A stretch of DNA of 46,246 nucleotides from Actinomycetota bacterium (GTDB taxonomy: Bacteria > Actinomycetota > Acidimicrobiia > Acidimicrobiales > Ilumatobacteraceae): contig WLHL01000010.1 of assembly GCA_009702755.1 (NCBI GenBank), positions 1-46,246 on the forward strand, given 5' to 3'. A program made the position numbers and the translations under genes. Within the stretch, counting starts at the first letter, position 1. Every line of letters begins with the position of its first letter. The notes under the pieces are model-generated. The model searched no databases, was not told the origin of the DNA, and worked only from the letters and a program-made list of their open reading frames with translations. Below are positions 28,216-30,765 of this stretch, piece after piece.

Positions 28216-29088
28216 TCAACGACAGTTCACGCACTGAGGTTCATCCTCGGTGGTGCACTCATCGCACACCAAGATACGAGTGCGGCATGTGAGCGTGCGG
28301 CAGTTGAAGAAATCGTTGGTGGCGCCACCGCAATAATCGCATTCGCCAAGAAGCAGTTCTTCTTTTCCGTACTCAAGCTTCAAGCGCTTATCAAAGACGT
28401 ACAGCGATCCTTCCCACAAGCCCTTGTCGCGGTATTGCTCTGCGTATCGAACAATGCCACCTTCAATTTGGTACACCTCTTTGAAGCCGCGATTCTTCAT
28501 GATGACAGACAAGATTTCGCACCGAATTCCACCCGTGCAGTACGAGACAATGGGCTTGTCCTTGAGATGGTCGAACTTTCCGCTCTCAAGTTCGCGAACA
28601 AAATCTGGCGTGGTTCGAGTGTCCGGAACAATCGCCCCACGGAAACGACCAATGCGAGATTCAAAAGCGTTACGTCCATCAAAGAAGACAACATCATCAC
28701 CACGTTCTTCCACGAGTGCGTTGACTTCATTAGGGGTGAGGTGTTGGCCACCGCCGATGACTCCATTCTCATCAACCTGGATCTCTCCGGGCACACCAAA
28801 AGTGACGATCTCTTCGCGGACGCGCACGCTCAGGCGAGGAAAGTCGTCGCCCACTCCTTCGGACCACTTGAAATCAATGTCCTTGAACGCAGCAAATTCA
28901 CGAGTCTCACGTACGTACAACTTCACGTTCATGAGTTCGCCACCGACAGTTGCGTTGATGCCGTGCTTGGAGATAATGATTCGACCCTTGAGATTTAGTT
29001 TCTCGCAGAGGGCGCGCTGCCACAGCCGAATCGCGATCGGATCAGCTAGTGGAGTGAATTTATAAAAGAGAACAATCTTTGCTTCGAT
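28216..29088 (-). CDS. trhO: tRNA uridine(34) hydroxylase (rhodanese-like TrhO), ATC start
   Basis: 290 residues when read from ATC 29088. The N-terminal acylphosphatase-like domain ([14 protein letters not shown], then [16 protein letters not shown]) is followed by the ferredoxin-like segment, the rhodanese domain with active-site loop CTGGIR and a C-terminal Cys-rich zinc-binding tail (CDYCGG...CDEC...CVNC). TrhO makes 5-hydroxyuridine at the tRNA wobble base. The first ATG in frame (28932) would delete about 52 strongly conserved residues. Between the upstream in-frame TAG and the conserved sequence there is no ATG, GTG or TTG, only ATC 29088 and ATT 29076. ATC sits exactly six bases after a TAGTTT box, as in other leaderless genes here. 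A base error changing ATG to ATC is the main alternative. Confidence 0.85.
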
Positions 29089-29094
29089 GCAACG

Positions 29095-29100
29095 AAACTA
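29095..29100 (-). promoter_or_regulatory. -10 box (TAGTTT) for leaderless trhO with ATC start
   Basis: TAGTTT on the minus strand, six bases (CGTTGC), then ATC 29088. It lies in the 21-base gap between the lipoprotein gene stop and trhO. The hexamer is identical to the one before padR. Confidence 0.5.
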
Positions 29101-29109
29101 CCTGCCGAA

Positions 29110-30765
29110 CTAGTCAGGTTCCGAAATTTCGATGGTGGGAACCGTTGTCGTTGTTGTTTGGTTTGCCTTACCTGGACTGAAGTTGCGAGGGGTTGCTGCG
29201 GAGACTCGGATCGGTGCGACGCGGGAGGGGAGAAGGGTCAACTTCCCTGTGTCATCAAGTGAAACATTGAGTTCAGTGGTTGCCGATTGTGATGTCAGAT
29301 CAATAGGGACAAAGGGACTGCGAGAACCATTTGCACCCTTGACCGATACTTCGATGCTGTTCTGAGAGATCGGCTTCACGGTCAATGTCTCGCCGGCGTT
29401 GAGCACACGACGCGAAATGCGAGACCCTGCAGAAAGACTCAGTCGTGCAACATTTTCTTTCGGTGCACGGACGGATGTTTCATCTGATGTTACGGAGATG
29501 AGGGCTGTTGAGCGATTCTTGTTGCTCAGGACATCGTGGGCAAGATTCCCTGTGACTTGAATGGATGCTCCATCCGAACGGCGCAGACCAAGAACGACAT
29601 CAGCGGCGGGAACATCTTGTGATGCACGCACAAGTCTCACGTCAAAGTTTTGAACTGTGACGGGAAGTGAAATTGTGACAAGTCCGCCGCCACTGCCTTT
29701 CCCAATCGAAACTATCGCTCCGTCGATTGAGTTATCTATGTCAGTGGGTGAAGTGCGGAGGACGCCATTCTCGGTCGTGACTTCGATAAACCCTGACGCA
29801 CGAATATCGCGTGAAGCAAGGGTGATGACATGTGAAGAGCGTGCAAGCGAAGAATTACAGAACGAACACTGAAATGGTCCCTTTCGTGTTGACATCGCAG
29901 TTAACTCGAGAGTGCCGGTTCCGCCGGACCATGTGTTGAAAGAGCCATCAACATTGCGGAACGCTCGTGGGTAGCGCCATTGGTTTGTCTGGGAATTCAC
30001 GAATAGTTCGAAGCGTTCTCCGGGGTGGTTGTTGTCATAGACATGAACAACAAAGTCATCACCGCGTTGTGTGACAGCGAACGGAGTCAGTGAATGACCC
30101 GATGGACCGTTGTAGATGCCGACGGTGTGGCCAACAGAGTGGGCGATTCCTTGGATGAGATCGTCAACCAGACGCAGGGGAGAAAGTCCACGTGATGTTG
30201 CAGCATGATCGGTGACTTCATTGAGAAACTGTGTTGCCCACCAATACACAACAGCTGAGTTGAGCTTTGCGTTGTCTTGAGAAAGAGCAGAGACGCTGGA
30301 CGTATTCGTTTGAAATGTGGAAGGAGAATCCATGCGAAGGAGAAACCGTGTGCTCAATGCGGCCAGACCTTCGCAGCGGCCACCGTTAAGAGCAGTGTTC
30401 CACTCTTCTAGTTTTTGAATTGCAGTAGGACGAAGAACGCAGGTGTCTTTTGGTCCTGCCACGCAGATGGAATCATGTCCGAATAGGTCAATCAGTGTTT
30501 GTGCTGTGACGTTGCCGTCTGCCGAAAGTGAGCGACCCCAGTTTTTAAATGAGAAGTCGTCCGACTTGATGCGAAAACCGTTGTCAATGCAAAGAACACC
30601 CTCTCCTAATTCAGGCGCCGCAAGGTCGGTGCAATGACTCAGTATTTGTTTCACTAATGCGCTGGTGTCCGGAACCGAGGGAGCAGTCGTGGTCGACGTT
30701 GTGCTGCATGCGCTACCCGCCAACACAAGGGATAGTGCAACCAAGGCCAGTCGTGGACGACGCAT
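29110..30765 (-). CDS. Secreted lipoprotein with a possible Cys-His-Asp catalytic domain
   Basis: 551 residues. The N-terminus is a lipoprotein signal (MRRPRLALVALSLVLAGSAC, Cys20) followed by a Ser/Thr linker. The region 120-250 has a papain/transglutaminase-like order of residues: C131 in GGRCEGLAAL, H224 in PSGHSLTPFAV and D244 in HVYDNNHPGE. I infer a Cys-His-Asp triad and a peptidase or related activity, but cannot assign a family. From about 260 to the end the protein is beta-rich with repeated short strands and a Pro/Thr tail. A TAGGGT box sits six bases before ATG 30765. It precedes trhO on the same strand but trhO has its own promoter. Confidence 0.7.
   Translation of the reverse strand: MRRPRLALVALSLVLAGSACSTTSTTTAPSVPDTSALVKQILSHCTDLAAPELGEGVLCIDNGFRIKSDDFSFKNWGRSLSADGNVTAQTLIDLFGHDSICVAGPKDTCVLRPTAIQKLEEWNTALNGGRCEGLAALSTRFLLRMDSPSTFQTNTSSVSALSQDNAKLNSAVVYWWATQFLNEVTDHAATSRGLSPLRLVDDLIQGIAHSVGHTVGIYNGPSGHSLTPFAVTQRGDDFVVHVYDNNHPGERFELFVNSQTNQWRYPRAFRNVDGSFNTWSGGTGTLELTAMSTRKGPFQCSFCNSSLARSSHVITLASRDIRASGFIEVTTENGVLRTSPTDIDNSIDGAIVSIGKGSGGGLVTISLPVTVQNFDVRLVRASQDVPAADVVLGLRRSDGASIQVTGNLAHDVLSNKNRSTALISVTSDETSVRAPKENVARLSLSAGSRISRRVLNAGETLTVKPISQNSIEVSVKGANGSRSPFVPIDLTSQSATTELNVSLDDTGKLTLLPSRVAPIRVSAATPRNFSPGKANQTTTTTVPTIEISEPD

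Follow-up and report, generated by a model that had tools for sequence, protein, structure and literature searches.

Start codons of the AUH class (ATC, ATA or ATT in DNA) are known, and so are leaderless genes. E. coli pcnB starts with AUU, which holds its expression low; it shares low expression via an AUH start with the reading of trhO developed here, and differs in being leadered and unrelated. Leaderless or nearly leaderless mRNAs with AUA and AUU starts occur in animal mitochondria, although with another ribosome, another genetic code and a modified tRNA-Met. Genes that prefer non-AUG starts were reportedly surveyed by Gvozdjak and Samanta in 2020.

IF3 is described as a repressor of AUH-class start codons (PMC5472188). 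The gene infC shares the start class of trhO and carries an AUH codon in the present order as well. It encodes IF3 itself and has a leader with purine-rich Shine–Dalgarno-like runs, whereas trhO encodes a tRNA hydroxylase and is apparently leaderless; the leader with a ribosome-binding site that belongs to the infC class was not found at trhO. In Streptomyces, the GTC start of sigR is repressed by IF3 and keeps expression low, as shown by experiment (PMC5472188). The likeness to trhO is considerable, as sigR is actinobacterial, starts outside ATG/GTG/TTG, is conserved in its clade and is mis-annotated by routine callers; the differences lie in the GTC codon, the leader and an extensive ribosome-binding site, AGGAGGTG (PMC5472188). 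Mycobacterial leaderless genes have ATG or GTG at position +1, and the genus studied here enriches the corresponding box spacing at ATG and GTG too. Only these two codons initiated at +1 there, whereas +1 of trhO is apparently AUC, AUA or AUU (PMC4633059). In M. smegmatis reporters, translation from +1 was seen from ATG or GTG only, in all but 547 of 343,242 reads, and ATC, used there as a presumed negative control, had low activity at a leadered Shine–Dalgarno site (PMC4633059). Why only AUG and GUG at the 5′ end start leaderless translation is left open in that work (PMC4633059). Neither a leaderless AUH start nor an unusual start of trhO was found in the literature searched, where subscription journals and preprints are poorly covered and absence is thus unproven; the same applies to a conserved union of AUH start and leaderless message.

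The window, i.e. the complete stretch of 46,246 nucleotides that was analysed, is part of a draft genome (G000:C2) from a genus that also holds relatives. Its minus strand contains trhO, the gene for tRNA uridine-34 hydroxylase, at 28216..29088 (290 codons plus stop when read from ATC), as delimited by the open frame, the profiles NF001133 and PF17773/PF12368/PF00581, and relatives. In minus-strand order the region reads TAG (29100-29098) TTT CGT TGC ATC (29088-29086) GAA GCA AAG ATT GTT CTC TTT TAT AAA, and the frame is uninterrupted from this TAG down to the stop codon at 28218-28216. The TAG is both an in-frame stop and the first half of TAGTTT (29095..29100, minus strand), the predicted −10 box according to the conservation of TAnnnT and its spacing in a sample of the genus. 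The 6-nt spacer CGTTGC (29089..29094, minus strand) between box and start holds no conserved codon when loci are compared. It is followed by the ATC at 29086..29088 (minus strand), which comparison of homologous positions across loci identifies as the putative initiation codon and which is the predicted 5′ end of the mRNA. The original prediction had placed ATC six bases past TAGTTT and had stated that ATG, GTG and TTG are absent between TAG and the region encoding the N-terminal domain. Both statements agree with the sequence, as the first such codon in frame is the ATG at 28930..28932 (minus strand), 52 codons past ATC and residue 56 of the open frame. This ATG, at which a listing of open reading frames limited to ATG/GTG/TTG starts the gene, lies inside the N-terminal domain. 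Upstream, a co-directional open reading frame of 551 aa (29110..30765, minus strand), with an N-terminus that looks lipoprotein-like by eye, ends 21 nt before ATC.

Enzymes of the TrhO class form ho5U34 on tRNA with O2, an activity that is predicted for the trhO product of the window. Its frame scores 244.3 bits against the NCBIfam profile NF001133 for TrhO (cut-off 170), with residues 8-241 on profile positions 1-227 of 229. The TrhO N-domain PF17773 matches residues 7-97 on profile positions 2-92 of 92, and the rhodanese domain PF00581 and the rhodanese C-terminal domain PF12368 are matched as well. The translation contains CTGGIR, an instance of the CxGGxR rhodanese motif given for TrhO in PMC6599085. 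The frame thereby combines an equivalog score above cut-off with an acylphosphatase-like N-domain and a rhodanese domain with CxGGxR, as expected of the TrhO class. Two solved chains, 9j5o (TrhO) and 4f67 (UPF0176, Lpg2838), align from frame residues 7 and 8, respectively. Together with PF17773 they bear out the earlier claim that the roughly 50 residues upstream of ATG 28932 form the TrhO N-terminal domain. A start at 28932 would cost about half of this domain; as it is complete only from ATC, its extent argues for the leaderless ATC as start. Two codons separate ATC from the conserved motif Lys-Ile-Val-Leu-Phe-Tyr; in other trhO genes the start and this motif are 2-4 codons apart.

The fetched trhO loci comprised 149 that could be anchored, 51 of them duplicates of another row and 98 distinct; three stayed unanchored, L023 because it was too distant and L184 and L185 because they were cut before the start. 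At the start position, 66 of the 98 distinct loci carry AUH (ATC 31, ATA 26, ATT 9), and 32 have a canonical codon at the homologous place (ATG 17, GTG 15). The window's family includes 71 genomes with a trhO match. Of these, 67 could be read, giving 68 loci, and G066 and G089 (match begins well inside the gene) as well as G106 and G195 (locus cut before the start) were left out. AUH is found in 67 of the 68 loci, i.e. AUU, AUC or AUA at the homologous start is conserved in relatives, as in the AUH-start class. The alignment of orthologues proposed together with the original prediction, in search of relatives with ATG, returned one such locus in the family, L020, which sits on a long branch beside AUH rows and lacks a box at 6-8 nt. 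In a 95-row protein tree, calculated by a quick method with the start region excluded and the short rows L187-L189 (all AUH) omitted, the 63 AUH rows all fall on one side of one branch; the start class changes once and the codon 12 times in total. Within the AUH clade, parsimony counts eight third-base exchanges among C, A and T, and none to G. For comparison, G is likewise absent from 7 of 52 fourfold columns in these genes, of which 6 encode Gly. Selection against ATG at the third base is thus weakly shown; firmer evidence comes from the 66 distinct loci, all of which keep the first two bases and the AUH class.

The box provides the second line of evidence. TAnnnT precedes AUH in 66/66 loci, at 6 nt in 26 and at 7 nt in 40. 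Such a placing accounts for 158 of 17,109 positions (0.9%) in the flanking sequence upstream of these loci, which excludes chance. In these loci, the −10 box is too near the start for any leader, and no conserved Shine–Dalgarno-like purine run was seen by eye before AUH in the 66 loci. The local use of this geometry was evaluated in a genus sample of 846 kb from G001, G003 and the window, with 829 selected open reading frames (those <120 codons skipped); a narrower box definition yielded too few matches and was replaced by the TAnnnT scan. Near the starts of open reading frames, ATG had TAnnnT at 6 nt in 70 and at 7 nt in 46 of 1206 cases, and GTG in 35 and 22 of 1188; for other codons the counts were 115 and 112 of 40,778. 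ATC (4 and 2 of 955), ATT (2 and 2 of 978), ATA (0 and 0 of 189), TTG (1 and 3 of 819) and CTG (2 and 2 of 618) remained at background. With ATG and GTG as the sole codons enriched at this spacing, leaderless starts locally follow an ATG-or-GTG rule, from which trhO departs. The +1 rule of M. smegmatis (RTG, i.e. ATG or GTG) would likewise be broken by the trhO clade, with AUC, AUA or AUU instead. The background level of ATC, ATT and ATA behind TAnnnT implies that few genes use a leaderless AUH. A general relaxation of leaderless starts in the genus was rejected on the same grounds. Start position, AUH identity, conservation and box can be read directly from the compared loci. The leaderless ATC start proposed originally is supported as far as sequence reaches, with ATC, ATA or ATT behind a box in the same place in other assemblies; the scope of that proposal was too narrow, as the AUH start is a clade-wide trait.

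Other start codons close to AUH were considered. Merely 1-3 codons separate the in-frame stop from AUH in 23/66 loci, so the start cannot in general lie far upstream, and a start further upstream was rejected for this reason. No in-frame ATG, GTG or TTG is found from stop to AUH in 40 of the 66 loci, and 26 have some such codon after the stop. In L009, L015, L016, L018, L019 and L118 it lies 2-3 codons ahead of AUH, where it overlaps the box or immediately follows it, and is not conserved. A start at the next Ile codon was rejected as well, because this codon encodes Val in L081 and L096.

We consider the following explanation, taken as a whole, probable. In the window's family, Acidimicrobiia that record titles describe as mostly freshwater, trhO would be transcribed from its own promoter, and the TAnnnT −10 box would make the A of AUC, AUA or AUU the first base of the transcript. 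From the box spacing we infer a transcript that begins at this A and is leaderless. Initiator fMet-tRNA would then read the 5′-terminal AUH, with full pairing at the first two bases and a mismatch at the third. Such a start would build in a low level of TrhO, which may rise under a shortage of IF3 or of free 30S subunits relative to 70S ribosomes. This expectation follows from the action of IF3 against AUH codons and, when IF3 is abundant, against leaderless messages; at trhO both effects would push in the same direction. The AUH of trhO is most likely a weak and perhaps IF3-disfavoured start. Set against the M. smegmatis rule, either the lineage differs or the output from AUH is low but sufficient. 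That these cells accept AUH starts is seen from infC, which has ATA or ATC in 28/28 readable loci of 30 (L125-L153; own genome L134), behind purine-rich Shine–Dalgarno-like runs. An infC-like link of trhO to IF3 would be an analogy, as infC has these runs and trhO does not. The limited expression of trhO and its truncation by automatic annotation, both anticipated by the original prediction, are plausible, and start calling limited to ATG/GTG/TTG would truncate genes of this kind.

Alternatively, a leaderless AUH could roughly match GUG in efficiency in this clade, owing to a change in the initiator tRNA or its modification or in the ribosome, and the codon would drift neutrally with no regulation attached. 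The eight exchanges of C, A and T at the third base fit this possibility, as do the control columns that lack G and the perhaps wider use of AUH in more than one gene. Still, we regard it as unlikely. Free drift should carry AUH to many genes and return ATG or GTG to trhO, whereas among the 829 open reading frames no codons other than ATG and GTG are enriched at the leaderless spacing. Moreover, an alignment of 10 IF3 sequences of the clade reveals nothing obviously altered, and among the 30 tRNA genes of the sample, which covers less than half of each genome, two are tRNA-Met(cat) and none has an odd anticodon.

A leadered message is the next possibility. Here AUH would be reached by re-initiation or 70S scanning on a transcript that stems from read-through or from an upstream promoter, and TAnnnT would not be the relevant promoter. 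The window itself is compatible with such a message, since its upstream open reading frame is co-directional and ends 21 nt away, so that re-initiation is conceivable there. Based on a coding-score heuristic, the nearest upstream frame is co-directional in 17/62 AUH loci and on the opposite strand in 45/62 (4/66 loci were excluded for too little upstream sequence or no upstream frame). Re-initiation from an upstream gene thus cannot account for AUH in general, given the 45 loci with opposite-strand neighbours, and 66/66 loci share box and spacing regardless. By eye, moreover, trhO lacks a conserved Shine–Dalgarno-like run before AUH, in contrast to infC of the same genomes with its purine-rich runs. 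Overall, a leadered AUH seems quite improbable to us.

A shortened protein, translated from ATG 28932 or from some other codon inside the gene, or else a decaying trhO, is suggested by the ATG/GTG/TTG-only listing that picks 28932. Either is very improbable, as the 52 codons before 28932 encode half of a known domain and can be aligned across the clade, and the distance from AUH to the next in-frame ATG, GTG or TTG varies from 6 to 88 codons among the 66 loci, with no one position common to them. An error of sequencing or assembly, with ATG read as ATC in the one draft assembly that contains the window, has next to no credibility and is rejected for the clade by its relatives, as ATC occupies the same codon in G012, G023 and G003 (L001, L003 and L004, probably identical to the records L031, L032 and L033), and ATA or ATT in more distant loci from different projects.

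The distribution of trhO is patchy, with a match in 71/221 genomes of the window's family f1 (E <= 1e-30) and in 16/397 genomes in a scan of the order (E <= 1e-60), 12 of the latter in the sister family f22. In f22, the homologous start is GTG in 12/12 loci, of which 11 have the box at 6 nt and one has it at 8 nt. Six trhO loci of Rothia and Corynebacterium have GTG as well, likewise behind such a box, and families more distant than the window's own show ATG or GTG. A box at 6-8 nt is present in 19 of the 32 ATG/GTG loci. The 13 loci that lack it, mostly ATG loci of other freshwater Actinomycetota, count against a leaderless AUH, as does the boxless L020. The simplest history suggested by these sequences is that AUH took the place of a leaderless GTG or ATG a single time, in the lineage ancestral to the window's family, and has been kept since; the tree leaves the direction of this change unfixed. 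A natural comparison is thus available within one order, with the same gene and the same kind of box in a GUG family (12/12) and in an AUC/AUA/AUU family (67/68). Such natural pairs allow asking whether ribosomes can initiate on a mismatched codon without a leader, by what route they would do so, and whether IF3 governs this.

Further AUH starts were sought by scanning for coding potential before the first ATG, GTG or TTG. The scan covered 1313 coding open reading frames, 400 of which have a late first start codon. Among the 26 of 400 matches listed, the top two ranks went to an MFS transporter and trhO, in this order, and a PAS-GGDEF-EAL gene and a gene of the saccharopine dehydrogenase family came further down; these four were coherent, and the rest of the 26 were judged by eye to be non-coherent. 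A cross-genome comparison, in which 282 of 1313 queries had a homologue in another genome, gave no convincing AUH start besides trhO, the other rows being put down, by eye, to similarity in a wrong frame or upstream.

The PAS-GGDEF-EAL gene was followed in L260-L274 and L315-L329 (own genome L264; also G001:C1:145887-147986). A conserved TCTGTGAGAAT-like stretch, which is not TAnnnT, is followed by about 6 variable bases and then ATC or ATA. By eye this arrangement is present in 30/30 loci from 29 genomes, and a pattern at 6 or 7 nt recovers 28/30, the exceptions being L315 with 5 nt and L322, which the pattern missed. In L318, a stop codon directly precedes ATA. An in-frame GTG three codons later in L323 and L326 and an in-frame ATG three codons before in L268 speak against AUH in this gene. 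Judged by this arrangement, it is an apparent second leaderless AUH gene of the genus.

Taken together, these cases suggest a small set of AUH-start genes and not one. It is conceivable, if doubtful, that leaderless AUH represents a real second mode of initiation in the lineage, against the RTG-only rule, and that a small IF3- or 70S-responsive group (trhO and PAS-GGDEF-EAL and, with leaders, infC and perhaps the MFS and saccharopine dehydrogenase family genes) shifts its output jointly as the initiation machinery changes state. If true, wobble-base modification and c-di-GMP signalling would be tied to ribosome supply.

The MFS transporter (L230-L240; own genome G000:C8:29998-31236) has ATC where its orthologues have ATG (L233) or GTG (L231). 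Its ATC has no clear box and is not clearly leaderless. For the saccharopine dehydrogenase family gene (L245-L259; own genome G000:C52:7476-8021), the case for AUH is weak and the start uncertain. Shortly past the upstream stop, 13 of the 14 readable loci (of 15) have ATT (10) or ATC (3), and one, L251, has ATG; three codons before ATT, TTG is found in three loci and CTG in two.
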